From: a virus
Length of the DNA: 44,579 nt
Virus record (IMG/VR): IMGVR_UViG_3300036985_003015
Coordinates: 1-44,579 of that record
Direction: 5' to 3' (one strand)
The first letter of the stretch is position 1. Each line of letters opens with the position of its first letter. Made by a program: the position numbers and the translations under genes. Under the pieces are notes generated by a model that made no database searches, was not told where the DNA came from, and saw nothing but the letters and a program-made list of their open reading frames with translations. This document shows positions 3,937 through 29,122 of this stretch, piece after piece.

Positions 3937-4304
3937 TTACCACCACACATAAGCATTGGAATACGTGGGTCACGACCGGCCGCCATAGCTGGACCCTTAA
4001 CAACGCGCTTTTGAACCATCTCTTCGCGCTGCATACGAGGTGTTTCGGTCTTTTCGTGCTTCATCATCGCTGATTTAGACGCATAACGCTCACCAGTGGC
4101 CTTTTCCATCACGCTGCCGCCTTTTTTAAGCGCTGTCAATGGAGCGCCCTTGTGCATTGCTTTTTCGTGCTTATGGATTGATTGTGCGATCATCTTTTTG
4201 TCTTGTTTCATGTCAGCTTTAACGTTGCCACCTTCGGCGTAGTTTTTGCCTTTCATCTTGCCGGCTGAGCCAAAATCAAACTCTTTTACATATGTACATG
4301 CCAT
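3924..4304 (-). CDS. Small Lys/Met-rich basic virion-associated protein with GG motifs
   Basis: A 126-residue, strongly basic protein with many Lys, Met and charged residues and little predicted fold. It carries three copies of a short Gly-Gly motif: YAEGGNV near residue 23, LKKGGSV near 61 and MCGGKV at the C-terminus. Related motifs occur in the large internal virion proteins of this genome. Small, basic and located among head and tail genes, it could be a packaged DNA-associated or internal head protein. I do not recognise a named family. ATG 4304 follows GGGGCAATATC, a usable ribosome binding site. Confidence 0.65.
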   Translation of the reverse strand: MACTYVKEFDFGSAGKMKGKNYAEGGNVKADMKQDKKMIAQSIHKHEKAMHKGAPLTALKKGGSVMEKATGERYASKSAMMKHEKTETPRMQREEMVQKRVVKGPAMAAGRDPRIPMLMCGGKVKK

Positions 4305-4314
4305 GATATTGCCC

Positions 4315-4734
4315 CTAGAACGTAGTTGGGTTGGCGTAGGTTTTAATGCACTCTAAGATGATTGTATAACGATCACCAGCGGCAGCACCGACGGTCGTGA
4401 ATAACACGTCGCCTGTCTTACCTGTGCCAGAGTTGTTTGGAATACCGCCAAAGTCTGAGAAGCACATCTTGTACATTACGTCAGCTGGGACTGTGTCAGC
4501 GATAACGTTTGTGTCTGCATTCCAAAGAATGTCTACAGCAACGCCAAATGTTTGCGCCCATATTTTATTAATCTTTACGCCTGTACAAGCACTACCGTTG
4601 GTGTTAACTGCTAAAGTTGAAACGTCAACCTTAACAACCGCAGCCTCACCTGTACCGTCTGAGATGTTTGTGAATTTTTGAATGACGAGTCTGTCGCCGT
4701 CAAGGATTGTTTGTGTGGTTACTGCATCTGCCAT
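4315..4734 (-). CDS. Putative virion (decoration or head-tail) protein
   Basis: A 139-residue protein rich in Thr, Val, Asp and Gly (starts MADAVTTQTILDGDRLVIQKF), with alternating hydrophobic and polar residues typical of a beta-sandwich. The ATG at 4734 is preceded by TAGGAGAACGAC, a strong ribosome binding site. It lies between the decoration-like protein and the basic GG-motif protein in the late operon. I recall proteins of this type next to capsid genes in environmental phages but no experimentally assigned role. Function is inferred only from size, composition and neighbours. Confidence 0.65.
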   Translation of the reverse strand: MADAVTTQTILDGDRLVIQKFTNISDGTGEAAVVKVDVSTLAVNTNGSACTGVKINKIWAQTFGVAVDILWNADTNVIADTVPADVMYKMCFSDFGGIPNNSGTGKTGDVLFTTVGAAAGDRYTIILECIKTYANPTTF

Positions 4735-4763
4735 GTCGTTCTCCTAAAATCAGTAGAGATGAT

Positions 4764-4779
4764 GGGAGCCGAAGCCCCC
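4764..4779 (-). terminator. TTCG-loop hairpin downstream of the decoration-like gene
   Basis: On the minus strand the sequence reads GGGGGC-TTCG-GCTCCC, a 6-bp stem (one G-T pair) with a stable TTCG tetraloop, about 15 bases after the stop of the decoration-like gene. There is no strong U-run, so it may be an attenuator or a barrier to 3' decay rather than a full terminator. A near-identical hairpin follows the capsid gene. Confidence 0.6.
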
Positions 4780-4792
4780 AATCATTATTAAA

Positions 4793-5134
4793 TTATGCTG
4801 CTGCGACTTGAGTCACAACAACACTATAGGTTGCTGAAGCTGCATCAACAGCTGCACCAGTAATGTTTGATGCACGAACAGTTACTGTGTTTGCGGCTGA
4901 AACAAAAGCGTTAAATACTAAACCTGCGGCTGGAGCTACTGGCAAACCTAACGATACAACGTTATTTACAGATGCGCCAGTTACTGTGATTGTTAAATCT
5001 TCTGAAGCTGCTGCTGCGATAGACGCAAAATTTAAGGCTGCAGAAGCGCCTAATATTGCTGTGATTTTTAAGCCAGAGCCTGCTACGAAGCCATTAGTTG
5101 AAATGATTGGACCTGTGAAGGTGGTTGATGCCAT
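4793..5134 (-). CDS. Putative capsid decoration protein
   Basis: I choose ATG 5134 (MASTTFTGPIISTNGF) because AAAGGAAAACATATC precedes it; the frame is open to 5179 but the extra residues (MHRLISETYAKGKHI) look non-coding. The 113-residue product is extremely rich in Ala, Val, Thr, Ser and Asn with alternating hydrophobicity (LTITVTGASVNNVVSLGLP), as expected for an all-beta decoration or stabilising protein. It lies directly after the major capsid gene and is bracketed by two near-identical TTCG hairpins with a structured leader upstream. It thus looks like a separately controlled, highly expressed unit, which fits a protein needed in hundreds of copies. Role inferred. Confidence 0.65.
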   Translation of the reverse strand: MASTTFTGPIISTNGFVAGSGLKITAILGASAALNFASIAAAASEDLTITVTGASVNNVVSLGLPVAPAAGLVFNAFVSAANTVTVRASNITGAAVDAASATYSVVVTQVAAA

Positions 5135-5162
5135 GATATGTTTTCCTTTTGCATAAGTTTCA

Positions 5163-5203
5163 CTTATTAGTCTATGCAACGTCTGCTAGGGCAGTCTAAT
5201 AAG
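5163..5203 (-). promoter_or_regulatory. Nested inverted repeat in the leader of the decoration-like gene
   Basis: A perfect 8-bp inverted repeat, CTTATTAG (5163-5170) and CTAATAAG (5196-5203), encloses a second hairpin, CTGC-TAGG-GCAG (5183-5194). It lies between the capsid hairpin and the ribosome binding site of the decoration-like gene. The transcript could fold into a branched 5' leader that stabilises the mRNA or modulates translation. An operator is an alternative. Confidence 0.4.
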
Positions 5204-5232
5204 CTAAAGTAAATAATCCTAGAAAGTTGGTA

Positions 5233-5248
5233 GGGGGCCGAAGCCCCC
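5233..5248 (-). terminator. TTCG-loop hairpin downstream of the major capsid gene
   Basis: The minus strand reads GGGGGC-TTCG-GCCCCC, a perfect 6-bp GC stem with a TTCG tetraloop, 14 bases past the capsid stop codon and followed by TACCAACTTTC. It is the twin of the hairpin at 4764-4779. It probably acts as a partial terminator or 3'-end stabiliser that raises capsid mRNA over downstream genes. Confidence 0.65.
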
Positions 5249-5261
5249 AAACCATTACAAC

Positions 5262-6176
5262 TTAGATACCAGCGGTACCGTAAGCGGCGCGAGGGTCAGT
5301 CCAACCTAGGCTATAACGCTCTGTTGCTTTGTAGCGCATAGAATCAGTCTCAAAATCCCCTTCCATCGATTTTTCCAAACCACGACGCATAACGATTTTC
5401 AAGCCTTCTGGCGCGTCTGTTTTCACCCACCAAGCGGTGTTTGAAGTCAAACGAGACATGTTAGCTTGACCACCAGCTAATAGACCCATTGATTTAATCG
5501 GGTTCAAGTCGTTGTCTGCTGTACCAGCTTTTAATACACTGTTCAACAATACTTCGCCTTGGAACACGTTAGATGGGCTCAATACTAGTTTTTGTGGTAC
5601 TAAACGGATACGTTTACCGTTGTTGTCCACTGCCTGACGGATTTGAATCAACATTTGCTCTAATGATGTTTGTGACAAAGCAGCTGCAGTAGTTAACTGG
5701 TTGCTGAATGTACCATTCACGATTGGGTGAGCAGTGTTGATCAATGAAACACCGTCGCCGCCAGCGTAAGCGTTGTTGAATGAGTTATTCAACACGTTAG
5801 CTGCCAAGGTCTCTTTTGTCTCAACCAAAGATTGAGCTAAGTGACGAGCGTATGTTTGACCGATACGGATATGGTCACCGTCTTCTACCAAGACTTTAGT
5901 CAAGGCAAAAGCTAGGCCATATACTTTGTACCAGTAGCGTTGTGCGAATAACACACCACCAGATTGGTAAGTAACTGCCATACCGTCTGGTAATTCAGGT
6001 GCTGCACCAAAGCCGTACAATACAGGCTCTTCGTGGTAGTTACGTTTGATACCTTGAACCTCATCAAACACGCCTTTCCACTCATCAGCACGTTGGCTGT
6101 AAATACCGTCAAAACTTTCGTTAAGGATCGGCTCAACAATGGACCTAAAGTCCGTACTTCTCATTGGGGTTGCCAT
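5262..6176 (-). CDS. Major capsid protein (Mu gpT-like)
   Basis: A 304-residue protein starting MATPMRSTDFRSIVEPIL. It has the layout of Mu gpT-like major head subunits with a HK97-type fold: an early helical arm (FDEVQGIKRNYHEEP), a central LTKVLVEDGDHIRIGQTYARHLAQSLVETKE segment that fits a spine helix, the NTAHPIVNGTFSNQ region, and the QKLVLSPSNVFQGEVLLNS segment found in many phage capsid proteins. It assembles the procapsid with the scaffold and portal encoded nearby. The start follows GGAGGTCTGACAA, a strong ribosome binding site. A stable hairpin follows the stop. Identification rests on remembered family motifs, length and the head-operon position. Confidence 0.88.
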   Translation of the reverse strand: MATPMRSTDFRSIVEPILNESFDGIYSQRADEWKGVFDEVQGIKRNYHEEPVLYGFGAAPELPDGMAVTYQSGGVLFAQRYWYKVYGLAFALTKVLVEDGDHIRIGQTYARHLAQSLVETKETLAANVLNNSFNNAYAGGDGVSLINTAHPIVNGTFSNQLTTAAALSQTSLEQMLIQIRQAVDNNGKRIRLVPQKLVLSPSNVFQGEVLLNSVLKAGTADNDLNPIKSMGLLAGGQANMSRLTSNTAWWVKTDAPEGLKIVMRRGLEKSMEGDFETDSMRYKATERYSLGWTDPRAAYGTAGI

Positions 6177-6189
6177 TTGTCAGACCTCC

Positions 6190-6795
6190 TTAGATTGACG
6201 CTGTAGCTGCTTTGTAAGCGTGTTCGTTGATACGAACATACGCAACAACATAAGCATCTGTTAGCGATTGGTTAATGTTAGTAGCGAAGCCAGTGATTTG
6301 GAACTGACCAGTACCTGAACCTTCGATAGCGGCTAAAGACGCTGTTGAAAGACCTGTACGGGTAGAACCACCTGGAGCTGCAAAGCCAGTAAAGTCACAT
6401 TGTTCACCTACGGAAGTTTGAACTGAATCAGTACCAGCAGTACCTGGATTTGTGTATTGAGCTTCAAACAGTGTTTCTGGATCATCGAACACATAAGCAT
6501 CGATTTCAGTAGCAGTACTACCACCAATCCAGTATGGAGAGATAGAAGGCTTGCCAGTTGAATCACGATACTCAACACCAGCTAAAGTACCAAGCAATGT
6601 TACGCCTGACACTGTACCTGTACGTGTACCATCTGATGTACCAAGTTGAACTGTACCAGCGTCTACTAATTTCACGGGATCATTTGAAAAAATGTTCGTG
6701 GCGTAGGTGCTAGCAATTGTATAAGCTTTCGGACGAATCTGACCACTGTTGTGGAAAGAAGGGCGGAAGCCAAAAGGTGCGCTTGTTGAAGGCAT
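6190..6795 (-). CDS. Conserved head-associated virion protein
   Basis: A 201-residue protein beginning MPSTSAPFGFRPSFHNSG, rich in Thr, Gly, Ser and Ala, with many short beta-like segments and no helical core. I recall proteins starting PFGFRPAYHPSG immediately upstream of capsid genes in environmental podovirus-like contigs. They are usually unannotated or called structural. It lies 13 bases before the capsid ATG, so the two are probably made together. A ribosome binding site (AAGGAGTAATTAAG) supports ATG 6795. A decoration or head-completion role is plausible but unproven. Confidence 0.7.
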   Translation of the reverse strand: MPSTSAPFGFRPSFHNSGQIRPKAYTIASTYATNIFSNDPVKLVDAGTVQLGTSDGTRTGTVSGVTLLGTLAGVEYRDSTGKPSISPYWIGGSTATEIDAYVFDDPETLFEAQYTNPGTAGTDSVQTSVGEQCDFTGFAAPGGSTRTGLSTASLAAIEGSGTGQFQITGFATNINQSLTDAYVVAYVRINEHAYKAATASI

Positions 6796-25163: not shown

Positions 25164-26945
25164 ATGTTCATAATCGATACCGAGGTCTACTCGGATTATT
25201 TTTTGCTTGCTATGCTACGCCTAAGCGACGGTAAGATCCGTCACTTTGAGTTTCACGCAGACGCCAAGCTTGATGTAACCAAGATAAAAAAACTGTTTGC
25301 GACCGAGACCGTTATTAGTTTCAACGGCAACAGCTACGACATACCTATTATCAGTGCAGCCGTCTCTGGCTACACCAACCAACAAATTAAAGACCTATCC
25401 GACAGTATCATTAAAAGCAACCAGCCTAGCTGGACGATACTGCGTGCGCATAACTTTGACATACTTAAGGCCAACCACATTGACCTGATCGAGGTCGCCC
25501 CTGGGCGGTCCAGCCTTAAGATTTACGGCGGCCGCATGAACGCCCCCAAGATGCAGGACCTACCGATTGACCCAAGCAGCAGCATATCCATCAAGCAACG
25601 CGCCGAGCTGCGCGATTATTGCGAGAATGACCTACACACGACGGCCATGTTGTACAAGGCGCTGAAGCCACAGATTGACCTGCGCGTTGGGCTGAGTGAG
25701 CAGTACGGGATGGACCTACGCAGTAAGAGCGATGCGCAGATTGCTGAGACGGTGATCATTAGCGAGATGACCAAGATCACCAAGCAAGGCTACGGTAAGA
25801 CCGCCCTAAAAGAAAACACATCGTTTAGCTACATCGACCCGCGCATCGTTAACTTTACCGACACCAAGCTTAACATACTGATCAACAGCCTGTGTGAGCA
25901 CAGGTTCACCCTAGGATTGAACGGCGCGGTGCAGATGCCTGACTGGCTACGCAGTACCAAGATTAAGATTGGCTCTGGTGAGTATCAGATGGGGATAGGT
26001 GGCCTACACAGCTGCGAGAAGACGCAGTACATCAAGGCCGACGACGAGCACATCCTGTTAGAGCTTGACGTGGCCAGCTACTACCCGAACATAATACTGC
26101 AGCAGCGCCTTGCGCCTAAGAGTATGGGCGCGCCGTTCTTGAGCGTGTACCAGTCTATTGTTACTAGGCGCCTAGAGGCCAAGCACCGTGGCGACAAGGT
26201 AACGGCCGACGTGCTTAAGATTGCTGTCAACGGCAGCTTCGGTAAGCTTGGCAGCAAGTACAGCGCCCTGTTCGCGCCGGAGCTACTGATACAGACAACC
26301 ATCACCGGGCAGCTTGCGCTGCTGATGCTGATCGAGGCCATCGAGCTAGCAGGCGCCAGGGTAGTCAGTGCCAACACCGACGGCGTGGTGATTCTGTGCC
26401 CACGTGTACTTGAGAAGCGTATAGACGAGGTTGCCTTTGACTGGATGCTTAACACTTCGTTCGATTTAGAGCGAACAGACTACCGAGCGTTGGCCAGCCG
26501 TGACGTGAACAGCTACGTGGCTGTTAAGCTAGACGGTAAGATCAAGGGTAAGGGGGTCTTCGCTAGCACTAGCCTGGCCAAAAACCCAGACGACCCAATC
26601 ATCGCCCAGGCGGTGGCCCAGTACGTCGCGCATGATATCCCACTTGAGATCACCATACGCAACTGCCGTGACATCACGCAGTTTATAACGATACGACGCG
26701 TACAGGGCGGCGCCACGTGGCAAGGGCAGTACCTAGGTAAGGCGGTGAGGTTCTATCACAGCAACGCCGTACCAAGCGCGCAGTGTATACACTACGCGAC
26801 CAACAGTAACCGCGTACCGAACTCAGCGGGTGCGCGACCATTGATGCAGTTACCAGACACGTTCCCAACAGACGTTGACTACAACTACTACCTGGTTGAG
26901 GCTGAGAAACTATTATGTGAGGTGGGTTGCAATGCTAGAGCGTGA
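25164..26945 (+). CDS. Family B DNA polymerase
   Basis: A compact, 593-residue replicative polymerase. The proofreading exonuclease has Exo I IIDTEV (D5, E7), Exo II SFNGNSYD (ending D59) and Exo III YCENDL (near 152). The polymerase has motif A LELDVASYYPNIIL (near 300), motif B KIAVNGSFGKLGSKYS (near 352) and motif C SANTDGVV (near 404), where the usual DTD is reduced to NTD. It is shorter than most family B enzymes, with little between exo III and motif A and a short thumb. It should copy the genome with the primase-helicase and ssb. The start follows AAAAGGCCACCCCTTA. The VRR-NUC gene overlaps its 3' end by 14 bases. Confidence 0.9.
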   Translation: MFIIDTEVYSDYFLLAMLRLSDGKIRHFEFHADAKLDVTKIKKLFATETVISFNGNSYDIPIISAAVSGYTNQQIKDLSDSIIKSNQPSWTILRAHNFDILKANHIDLIEVAPGRSSLKIYGGRMNAPKMQDLPIDPSSSISIKQRAELRDYCENDLHTTAMLYKALKPQIDLRVGLSEQYGMDLRSKSDAQIAETVIISEMTKITKQGYGKTALKENTSFSYIDPRIVNFTDTKLNILINSLCEHRFTLGLNGAVQMPDWLRSTKIKIGSGEYQMGIGGLHSCEKTQYIKADDEHILLELDVASYYPNIILQQRLAPKSMGAPFLSVYQSIVTRRLEAKHRGDKVTADVLKIAVNGSFGKLGSKYSALFAPELLIQTTITGQLALLMLIEAIELAGARVVSANTDGVVILCPRVLEKRIDEVAFDWMLNTSFDLERTDYRALASRDVNSYVAVKLDGKIKGKGVFASTSLAKNPDDPIIAQAVAQYVAHDIPLEITIRNCRDITQFITIRRVQGGATWQGQYLGKAVRFYHSNAVPSAQCIHYATNSNRVPNSAGARPLMQLPDTFPTDVDYNYYLVEAEKLLCEVGCNARA

Positions 26946-27198
26946 CATAGAGAAGGCGTTTGTTAAGCGGGTCAAGTCACTCGGCGGCATGGCGGAGAAG
27001 TTCACGTCACCCGCCAAGCGCTCGGTGCCTGATCGTATTGTCACGTTGCCCGGCGGCGTGATTATCTTTGTTGAACTAAAGAAGCCAGGCGCTAAGCCGA
27101 CTGAGCTGCAGCTGCGCGATCATGACATCCGTCGTGCGTTTGGCTGCGACGTCAGGGTTATCTCTACTATGGAGCAGGTCGATGCGTTTCCTAAGTGA
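26932..27198 (+). CDS. VRR-NUC nuclease
   Basis: ATG 26932 (MLERDIEKAFVKRVKSLGG) follows GAGGTGGGTTGCA and is preferred to the frame opening upstream. The 88-residue product is a minimal VRR-NUC domain: ERDIEKAFVKRVKSLGGMAEKFTSPAKRSVPDRIVTLPGGVIIFVELKKPG, with the PD...ExK catalytic residues. Such stand-alone nucleases are common beside SNF2-type helicases in phages and are thought to cut branched DNA. Here the helicase follows after an inserted homing endonuclease gene. Family assignment is strong. Confidence 0.88.
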   Translation: MLERDIEKAFVKRVKSLGGMAEKFTSPAKRSVPDRIVTLPGGVIIFVELKKPGAKPTELQLRDHDIRRAFGCDVRVISTMEQVDAFPK

Positions 27199-27892
27199 TT
27201 GTTTTTGTTTTACCTTCGGTATATACTTACTTTTCTATTATCCAAGAGTAAGATTATTATGCAAATAAACGCAGAACTATTAAAAAAATTAGTAAATTAT
27301 GACGAAGTCTCTGGTGAAATGAGGTGGTTAAATCGACCAGTTGAAATGTTTAAAACAAAAAGTGCTCACGCTGGTTGGAATAAACGATTAGCTGGCAAGA
27401 AAGCAGTAACAATTGATGGCAAAGGATATTTGGTTGTTTCTATATTTTGCAAAAGATATTTAGTTCATCGGCTTATATGGCTTTATGTTTATGGCAGGTT
27501 TCCTAAAATAATAGATCACATTAATGGTATTCGCACAGACAACAGACTTGTTAATTTACAAGAAGTGACTAATCAACAAAATCACATGAATCAAAAACGA
27601 TCGTCAAAAAACACAAGTGGTGCAACAGGCGTATATTTAAATAAAAAGCGCAATATATGGTGCGCGCAAATTAAATTTAATGGCAATACTTATCATATTG
27701 GGTCTAGTAAAAATTTTGATGAAGCGGTGCTTATGCGAAAAAATGAAGAAAAAAAATTAGGTTTTTCTGAAAGGCATGGTAATGAGATTTAAATCAGAAA
27801 TGCATAATTATCAAAATAACGCTGTTGATTTTATAAGAGTGCAAAAACGTTGTCTTCTTGCAATTGGAATGGGTTGCGGAAAAACATGTATT
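27199..27892 (+). mobile_element. AT-rich homing-endonuclease insertion with flanking conversion tract
   Basis: From the base after the VRR-NUC stop to about 27892 the DNA is much richer in A and T than either side. It includes the endonuclease gene and the first ~39 codons of the helicase, with codons such as AGA, ATA and GGA that are rare in the rest of that gene. The change back is sharp, just after the Walker A codons. This looks like an insertion with co-conversion of the flank. Confidence 0.65.
27259..27792 (+). CDS. HNH homing endonuclease with AP2 DNA-binding domain
   Basis: ATG 27259 (MQINAELLKKLVNYDEVSG) is preferred; the 20 residues upstream look non-coding. The 177-residue protein has an HNH core, HRLIWLYVYGRFPKIIDHINGIRTDNRLVNLQEVTNQQN (about 70-108), and a C-terminal AP2-like domain, SGATGVYLNKKRNIWCAQIKFNGNTYHIGSSKNFDEAV. 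This is the standard layout of free-standing phage homing endonucleases, which cut a cognate allele and are copied into it. It sits between VRR-NUC and helicase genes that are usually adjacent, and overlaps the helicase start by 17 bases. No intron or intein is visible. Confidence 0.87.
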   Translation: MQINAELLKKLVNYDEVSGEMRWLNRPVEMFKTKSAHAGWNKRLAGKKAVTIDGKGYLVVSIFCKRYLVHRLIWLYVYGRFPKIIDHINGIRTDNRLVNLQEVTNQQNHMNQKRSSKNTSGATGVYLNKKRNIWCAQIKFNGNTYHIGSSKNFDEAVLMRKNEEKKLGFSERHGNEI

Positions 27893-29122
27893 ACCCTGAC
27901 GGCCATCAACGACTTGATTGACTCGTTCACGATACACAAGACGTTGATCATTGCGCCACTACGCGTGGCCAACAGCGTCTGGGCACAAGAGGCCGAGCTG
28001 TGGGAGCACACCAAGCATTTAAAGGTCAGCGTCTGCACGGGTAACGAGCGGGCGCGGCTGACGGCGCTTATGCAAGACGCCGACATCTTTGTGATCAACC
28101 GTGAGAACGTCGAGTGGCTAGTCAAGTCGCAAAAAAATTGGCGCTTCGATTGCGTGGTGGTCGACGAGTCAGACTCGTTCAAGAACGCCAGCTCTAAACG
28201 CTTTAGGGCACTACGCAAGGTGCTGCCAGACACGACGCACATGGTTCTACTATCAGGCACCCCGTCGCCCAATGGCCTACTCGATGTCTGGGCACAGATG
28301 TACCTGATTGACTTTGGTGAGCGCCTAGGTCGGACGATGACCTCGTACAAGGATCGGTTCTTCGAGAAGGACTACATGGGTTACAACTTCACACTGCGTG
28401 AGGGTAGCGCCGGCAAGATACACGACCTGCTTAGGGACAAGGTCTTGAGCATGAGCAGCGAGGACTACCTTGAGCTGCCTGATCGGATAAGTTTGGTCGA
28501 GCCCGTAGACTTACCGCCGGCCACACTGCGTGAGTACAAGGACTTCGAGACCACGCTACTGGCGACGCTGCCAGACGGTGAAGAGATTGAGGCCATGAAC
28601 GCGGCCGTGTTAGCCGGCAAGCTACTGCAGTACGCCAACGGGGCCATCTACACCGACGAGCACCACAATTGGACCAACATCCACGACGTTAAGCTAGACG
28701 CCCTGGCCGAGATCATTGAGAACAACAGCGGTGAGAACATCCTGGTCGCGTACAACTTTAAGCACGACCTAGCCAAGCTGCAGCAGCGGTTCCCTAGTGG
28801 CGTCGCGTTAGACAAGGACCCCAACACCGTCGTGCGTTGGCAGCAGGGTAAGATCAAGCTAATGTTTGCCCACCCACAATCTGCCGGGCACGGGCTAAAC
28901 CTACAAGACGGTGGCTGCCTAGCTGTTTGGTTTGGGTTGACCTGGTCACTTGGCCACTACCTACAGTTCAACGCAAGGCTACACAGACAGGGACAACAGC
29001 GCCCAGTGCGAATTATTCACATCATCGCCAGCGGCACGATAGACGAGCGAGTGGTGTCAGTACTGAGTTTGAAGGGTGCCGTACAAAATAATTTGCTAAA
29101 TGCGTTAAAAGTACAAAAATAA
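27776..29122 (+). CDS. SNF2-type superfamily 2 helicase
   Basis: A 448-residue helicase. Motif I is GMGCGKT (residues 31-37), followed by TLIIAPLRVANSVWAQEAELW (Ia), VVVDESDSFKN (II, DESD), LLSGTPSPNGLLDVWAQMYLID (III), LVAYNFKHDL (IV), HGLNLQDGG (V) and LQFNARLHRQGQQRPVRIIHI (VI). It is of the short phage type that pairs with VRR-NUC nucleases and probably remodels replication or recombination forks. Its first 39 codons are AT-rich, unlike the rest, which links this part to the homing endonuclease insertion. ATG 27776 and ATG 27782 are both possible. Its stop overlaps promoter P3. Confidence 0.9.
   Translation: MVMRFKSEMHNYQNNAVDFIRVQKRCLLAIGMGCGKTCITLTAINDLIDSFTIHKTLIIAPLRVANSVWAQEAELWEHTKHLKVSVCTGNERARLTALMQDADIFVINRENVEWLVKSQKNWRFDCVVVDESDSFKNASSKRFRALRKVLPDTTHMVLLSGTPSPNGLLDVWAQMYLIDFGERLGRTMTSYKDRFFEKDYMGYNFTLREGSAGKIHDLLRDKVLSMSSEDYLELPDRISLVEPVDLPPATLREYKDFETTLLATLPDGEEIEAMNAAVLAGKLLQYANGAIYTDEHHNWTNIHDVKLDALAEIIENNSGENILVAYNFKHDLAKLQQRFPSGVALDKDPNTVVRWQQGKIKLMFAHPQSAGHGLNLQDGGCLAVWFGLTWSLGHYLQFNARLHRQGQQRPVRIIHIIASGTIDERVVSVLSLKGAVQNNLLNALKVQK

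Follow-up and report, generated by a model that had tools for sequence, protein, structure and literature searches.

The window analyzed here is the full 44,579 nt of IMG/VR virus record IMGVR_UViG_3300036985_003015, in which a VRR-NUC-like nuclease gene is followed by an HNH gene and then by a helicase gene of SNF2 type (27776-29122; SNF2-rel_dom E = 5.8e-22 over the full-length protein), with a second possible helicase start codon at 27782 (Table 1). The VRR-NUC label came from an earlier, sequence-only reading of this DNA and is sound as far as its PHROG endonuclease match goes, while its match to the Pfam profile of that name is weak. At its native 3′ end, this nuclease gene also contains codons 1-6 of the helicase as it originally began (ATGCGTTTCCTAAGTGAT).

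Table 1. Features of the nuclease-helicase junction in the window
Feature	Position	Strand	Remarks
VRR-NUC-like nuclease gene	26935..27198	+	PHROG phrog_93 'endonuclease' E 8.6e-27; Pfam VRR_NUC E 0.12
AT-rich block of foreign origin (HNH gene with its leader, plus helicase head)	27199..27892	+	GC 0.316; homology breaks in 5/5 empty loci
AT-rich leader of HNH gene	27199..27258	+	52/60 nt identical in L013
HNH homing-type endonuclease gene, 177 aa	27259..27792	+	HNH_3 E 2.8e-17; phrog_99 E 2.6e-59
Overlap of HNH gene end and helicase start, 17 nt	27776..27792	+	
Foreign helicase head, codons 1-39	27776..27892	+	GC3 0.16 vs about 0.7 in native heads
GMGCGKT Walker A codons, in foreign head	27866..27886	+	6 nt before right edge
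Native helicase body, SNF2/DEAD type	27893..29122	+	nearest to empty relatives

GC content in the block that runs from the nuclease stop into the helicase was 0.316, compared with about 0.55 around it and 0.492 window-wide. The best two GC change points within 26500-29100 fell at 27187 and 27893, and a scan of the whole window placed the starts of equally AT-rich 694-nt segments (within 0.03) at 27106-27278 only. Codon bias, named as a check in the sequence-only reading, followed the same course, with GC3 at 0.23 in the HNH gene and 0.16 in the helicase head and then 0.75 in the next 246 helicase codons, just downstream. The AT-rich block with the HNH gene and the first 39 helicase codons, as that reading described it, is thus real, and its borders are matched by the homology breaks reported below. 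A separate promoter for the HNH gene was considered and is not claimed: a TTGTTT-17-TATACT pair can be picked out by eye at 27199-27227 and is absent from the promoter-scan list. A similar pair is present, again by eye, in L013, one of the relatives described below.

The HNH protein carries the motif HINGIRTDNRLVNL and has an intact HNH domain, with HNH_3 profile positions 1-46 of 46 matched. It had been read as an HNH-AP2 protein, of which the HNH part is well founded and the AP2 part less so: the match to its C-terminal piece was weak (E = 0.058), and related enzymes gave E = 0.015 (L012) and, more clearly, 3.7e-7 (L148) and 1.9e-7 (L163), all of these, including that of the window, under the Pfam cut-off. 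The one structure matched was 1u3e ('HNH homing endonuclease'; weak, E = 0.12, residues 64-125), which we take to be I-HmuI. A search of 26800-28400 against Rfam returned nothing with E ≤ 1, by which a group I intron was ruled out; the helicase reading frame is uninterrupted, and the HNH gene lies outside any intron or intein. In both phage families studied here the gene is present or absent at one fixed site among close relatives, discordantly with backbone descent, and sequence comparison showed that flanking sequence travels with it. The best reading of the gene, from these patterns, is a predicted free-standing homing endonuclease.

We assessed the native state of the junction in family 1, the family of the window, where a helicase-based scan returned 33 loci and seven close relatives cover the junction. 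Five of the seven are HEG-less (L002, L003, L004, L009 and L016, the matches of L003 and L016 being identical). In each of them, similarity to the window ended at 27199 or 27200 and restarted at 27893, in agreement with the earlier claim that the block ends abruptly after GMGCGKT-C-I. The edge in the window is codon 39, two codons after the Walker A threonine. Where the window has 693 nt, the empty loci have 93 nt, a GC-rich native stretch covering helicase codons 7-37, which in L002 encodes LHQYQLHAINFIKQQKRCLLAISMGLGKTIS with a GC3 of about 0.7. The helicase ATG of these relatives lies inside the nuclease gene; since the window keeps the six initial native codons within its nuclease gene and the block then supplies a whole new start, the block replaced native codons 7-37. 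An AT-rich helicase start in empty relatives, which the sequence-only reading had named as telling against it, was seen in 0/5 loci, and since every one carried a GC-rich native head that reading stands in this respect. While the window's helicase body is 92-94% identical to that of L002 at the nucleotide level, the two heads share 22/37 amino acids and 58/111 nucleotides. By these comparisons, the first 39 helicase codons are foreign.

The nearest backbone relatives of the window are empty, and two more distant relatives carry the window-type head. L013 has this head together with the same HNH gene as the window (93% protein identity). In L012 the head is accompanied by another HNH gene (41% identity over 94 aa) and by a nuclease gene that is AT-rich too, a combination suggesting that one head can serve two enzymes and that the tract can extend further left. 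The heads of L012 and L013 are identical (111/111 nt) and differ from that of the window at two sites (109/111 nt identical to each), compared with 84% identity in the helicase body. In the body tree the window grouped with empty L002, L003 and L009 (support 98/99), and a single clade of the three family 1 carriers was rejected on the helicase body (AU p = 0.013, related genomes counted as separate). Head identity by itself does not establish a recent transfer, and a case for one on that ground was rejected after a control among empty relatives: between L002 and L004, dS was 0.19 in the head and 1.37 in the body, so the helicase start evolves slowly there too and the high head identity of the window to L013 gives no date for the transfer.

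Searches for a donor of the head returned the known carriers. Searched as degenerate DNA in viral contigs, the head matched L012 and L013 only; of 22 stretches picked up by a looser HNYQ pattern, those with a matching head were again L012 and L013 alone, and a stricter head pattern had no match in genome contigs. With tblastn of the head against named phages, the best identity among the 30 matches listed of 905 records was 53.7%, with two records in the 60-80% band standing outside those 30. Two AT-rich phages with this gene pair, L066 and L085, were considered as donors and rejected.

Other inserts were observed in the family 1 relatives. In L013 (IMGVR_UViG_3300037488_001970, 3968-6283), the helicase frame of 771 aa has an intein-like insert, recognized by eye, that spans CLAEGTEVLTISGW... 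to ...LLISHN|C with apparent splicing motifs and had no NCBIfam or Pfam intein match. An inner ORF of this insert (5079-5729) encodes a 216-aa protein, HNH-like by eye, in another frame, the helicase frame also being open there; it resembles the out-of-frame HNH of the ShiLan insertion (PMC11855218), to which L013 adds the apparent splicing motifs. In L012 (1378-2323) the DNA polymerase gene is interrupted by a gene that by eye is GIY-YIG-like, and each half of the polymerase terminates in foreign AT-rich DNA, with 76 native nt displaced by these stretches. L009 (3176-3750) carries an inserted AT-rich ORF where its VRR-NUC-like gene begins; a copy of ATGCTAGAGC stands at each end of the insert, and the product is by eye PD-(D/E)XK nuclease-like. 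In L003 and L016 (2755-3748) the polymerase gene and the VRR-NUC-like gene are separated by an extra gene, by eye of cytosine-methyltransferase type, that the window lacks at this place.

An independent test was provided by a second phage family, reached by a search with the L012 nuclease, that has the same gene pair with a helicase about 37% identical. The best 80 of 393 relatives and 23 earlier loci gave 103 loci, 69 of them distinct; the incomplete helicase of L063 was dropped, leaving 68 helicases for analysis over the full ungapped 1380 nt and 65 sequences for trees after near-copies were thinned. Seven genomes had a type A HNH gene at the junction, called by a purpose-built profile, and two (L148 and L163) a type B gene, called by reading the upstream ORFs; the type B enzyme is HNH-AP2-like and 38% identical to the window enzyme over 108 aa. 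The remaining 59 had neither, and 24 of these had other junction inserts. A scan for HNH motifs up to 1300 nt upstream, with less upstream DNA available for some loci, found no further case at the junction.

Head divergence was measured as the excess of nt 1-330 over the body, relative to the HEG-less genome nearest by body. This excess was 0.114-0.248 with type A (7/7) and 0.123-0.144 with type B (2/2), compared with means of 0.034 in the 24 genomes with other inserts and 0.016 in the 35 without an insert (Mann-Whitney p = 1.4e-6, with related genomes counted as separate). A foreign helicase head was therefore present in 9/9 genomes with a junction HNH gene and in 1/59 without. The sole clear exception is L133 (excess 0.193, the next highest being 0.096), which has an L138-type head, no adjacent endonuclease, and a different HNH motif 990 nt upstream of the helicase. 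L056 has an HNH motif 770 nt upstream and L074/L075 a related gene further upstream still than either, none of them adjacent to the helicase.

The junction of this family hosts many different genes (e.g., in L144, L150, L143 and L119), by eye PAPS-reductase-like, methyltransferase-like and small ORFs, and several of these inserts share an end point within a few bases at the helicase start. Such permissiveness, along with an L012 border that falls at a gene start, is what one would expect from ordinary exchange of alleles or modules between gene borders, in which the HNH gene merely rides along and cutting is irrelevant. The other-insert genomes act as controls for this explanation: 23/24 of them keep the native head, L133 being the exception, while none of the nine HNH-gene genomes does (0/9), so an insert as such leaves the head unchanged. 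We consider plain module exchange very improbable. Two further compositional features were observed in the search set. Helicase codons about 30-90 of L080 have a GC3 of about 0.3 with no adjacent HNH match, which is possibly an old scar of the same process, and L094 (10655) shows the opposite contrast, a helicase start with GC 0.57 in a contig stretch with GC 0.39.

We located the right edges in family 2 from carrier bases seen in under 5% of HEG-less genomes. Isolated later sites aside, every one of the seven type A carriers, and L133 as well, had its head edge at nt 326-328 (about codon 109), while the last rare sites of the two type B heads were at nt 128 and 147 (codons 43-49), about 6 codons apart. 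So the right edge appears to track the enzyme type, not the phage. The sequence-only reading had suggested that the cut site may lie at or near Walker A on the argument that homing enzymes often target conserved codons, an argument the edges speak against: they are not specially conserved in native DNA (conservation rank 0.53 for type A and 0.04 for type B, with 0.23 at the Walker A position in family 2), and that of type A lies far past Walker A. A cut site at conserved DNA thus gains no support from local conservation.

Head and endonuclease were linked in composition and in ancestry. Endonuclease GC3 was positively correlated with head GC3 across carriers of both families (rho = 0.87, p = 3e-4, n = 12) and within type A alone (rho = 0.80, p = 0.03), while head GC3 showed no agreement with body GC3 over the carriers. 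The type A heads, together with that of L133, formed one clade (support 95) spread over seven backbones, and one clade for the type A bodies was rejected (AU p = 2.5e-26, related genomes being counted as separate). Distances between endonucleases matched those between heads (Mantel r = 0.815, 1/5040 orders as high) more closely than those between bodies (r = 0.46, 578/5040), with head and body distances themselves also correlated (r = 0.71, 104/5040). In two carriers (L102; L103/L104) different DNA precedes the endonuclease, so the linkage is to the helicase. By these measures, endonuclease and head have a common composition and ancestry, from which the helicase body stands apart. The count of carriers with an endonuclease next to a native head was 0/12 (nine in family 2, three in family 1).

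The type A heads are open, largely synonymous variants, 83-90% identical to the native consensus in amino acids and 72-78% in nucleotides. A preponderance of synonymous differences could also arise if heads had diverged in place under selection to escape cutting, with no import. Against that account stand the composition of the head, which matches the endonuclease and not the body, the single clade formed by heads on unrelated bodies and, in family 1, agreement with the native head at 22/37 residues only. We regard in-place divergence as barely credible.

An import by co-conversion, as the sequence-only reading proposed, fits the tie between a foreign head and a homing-type endonuclease, and its one-off form fits poorly with a single head clade that spans seven backbones. 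In that form the tract would be a neutral footprint, a flank copied once from an AT-rich donor that ends where repair stopped and plays no part in immunity. In favor of this form, flank co-conversion is established for phage homing enzymes (PMC2988022), and L012 has a tract that extends further to the left. A neutral flank would be expected to be lost or recombined away in some carriers, however, and the one clade with its common edge across seven backbones, together with the 0/12 count, makes a neutral footprint unlikely. Seven backbones that form no clade of their own carry one head clade, matched to the enzyme and ending at a common edge codon, and this pattern argues for a lasting linked unit.

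Our preferred reading, to which we give a probability of roughly two in three, is that the block is a mobile cassette moved by break repair, in which a free-standing HNH homing endonuclease gene is coupled to the helicase 5′ segment. Several results weigh against it: the donor searches returned no donor lineage in the sets covered, the slow change of the helicase start among empty relatives weakens the argument from head identity, the head of L012 is paired with a different enzyme, the two type B edges disagree and fall in poorly conserved DNA, and head distances correlate with body distances too. In the mechanism we propose, the enzyme would nick or cut the native helicase 5′ region in co-infecting phages, and repair templated by the carrier would transfer the endonuclease gene together with the head, to roughly the position of the cut. 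The transferred head would yield a helicase that is still functional and whose gene is unrecognized by the enzyme, making the carrier immune; presumably the enzyme is unable to cut the foreign head that accompanies it. An endonuclease next to a cuttable head would be selected against, maintaining the linkage, and recombination would shorten the imported tract until it ends at the border of the target. Given such trimming, the right edge (codon 39 in the window) would lie at or close to the recognition site, which is predicted to fall inside the replaced stretch. The proposed immunity also predicts the direction of the asymmetry among genomes, in that no carrier of the 12 pairs an endonuclease with a native head, and the reverse case, a foreign head with no endonuclease next to it, occurs in one genome of 59 (L133). 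A more specific form of the cassette reading, which we hold tentatively and at a little short of even odds, is that these are natural 'cut and rescue' cassettes, in which each enzyme type destroys the native helicase 5′ part and supplies a diverged version that is uncuttable yet works, the inner edge of which would mark the cut site. Engineered cleave-and-rescue elements use the same logic, and a paper on a 'mobile DNA cassette' reportedly covers T4 MobA with the 50-nt insert of gene 60.

Systems of this kind are already known, and it is the replicated evidence that appears unusually clear here. It is established that free-standing phage endonucleases cause co-conversion of flanks and marker exclusion, and SegF, SegG and MobE of T4-like phages resemble the present case as intergenic endonucleases beside an essential replication gene, with HEG+/HEG- polymorphism and co-transfer of flanks (PMC2988022). 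In T4, cut sites can be hundreds or thousands of bp away (PMC2988022) and are known experimentally, whereas the candidate resistant segment described here spans little sequence, adjoins the endonuclease gene and can be read off natural variation in both phage families. That donor flanks replace the cleavage sequence and thereby confer resistance is a general assumption in the field (PMC12724721). In T4 gene 60, a 50-nt insert is thought to protect against the neighboring endonuclease, so that MobA and gene 60 likewise link an endonuclease gene to a possibly protective stretch in the adjoining gene (PMC5009743). Unlike that non-coding insert, which ribosomes skip, the stretch in our phages is foreign coding sequence that is predicted to work.

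Mobile ORFs of fungal mitochondria (Allomyces atp6; Glomus atp6, atp9, cox2 and nad3) also bring foreign gene ends and create hybrid genes, in their case 3′ ends, with the displaced native end kept downstream (PMC3630166). In the phages, by contrast, it is the 5′ end that is imported and the displaced native end is not retained, codons 7-37 being absent and only the first six codons persisting inside the VRR-NUC-like gene. Barth et al. 2023 described HEG islands at phage exchange borders, with HNH-3 and HNH-AP2 genes beside replication genes and tied to genetic exchange as they are here; the available part of that paper, unlike the present case, mentions no helicases and no enzyme-specific edges within genes (PMC10448857). 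Among titles and abstracts, which covered the literature in part, we found no endonuclease-linked helicase heads and no placement of cut sites from their edges.

The comparisons across genomes show foreign homing-type endonuclease genes and helicase heads that remain linked on phage-native helicase bodies, with an edge that is specific to the enzyme. The linkage joins an endonuclease with a diverged piece of an essential-looking gene, and a phage helicase is evidently able to exchange its ATP-binding head for a version of 59% identity with its reading frame still maintained. Free-standing homing genes are more numerous than those with a known target, and natural sequences alone here yield a specific and cheap target prediction for three enzyme types. 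If the 'cut and rescue' reading is true, the cut sites of uncharacterized free-standing homing enzymes could be read from the ends of HEG-linked alleles in natural phage populations.
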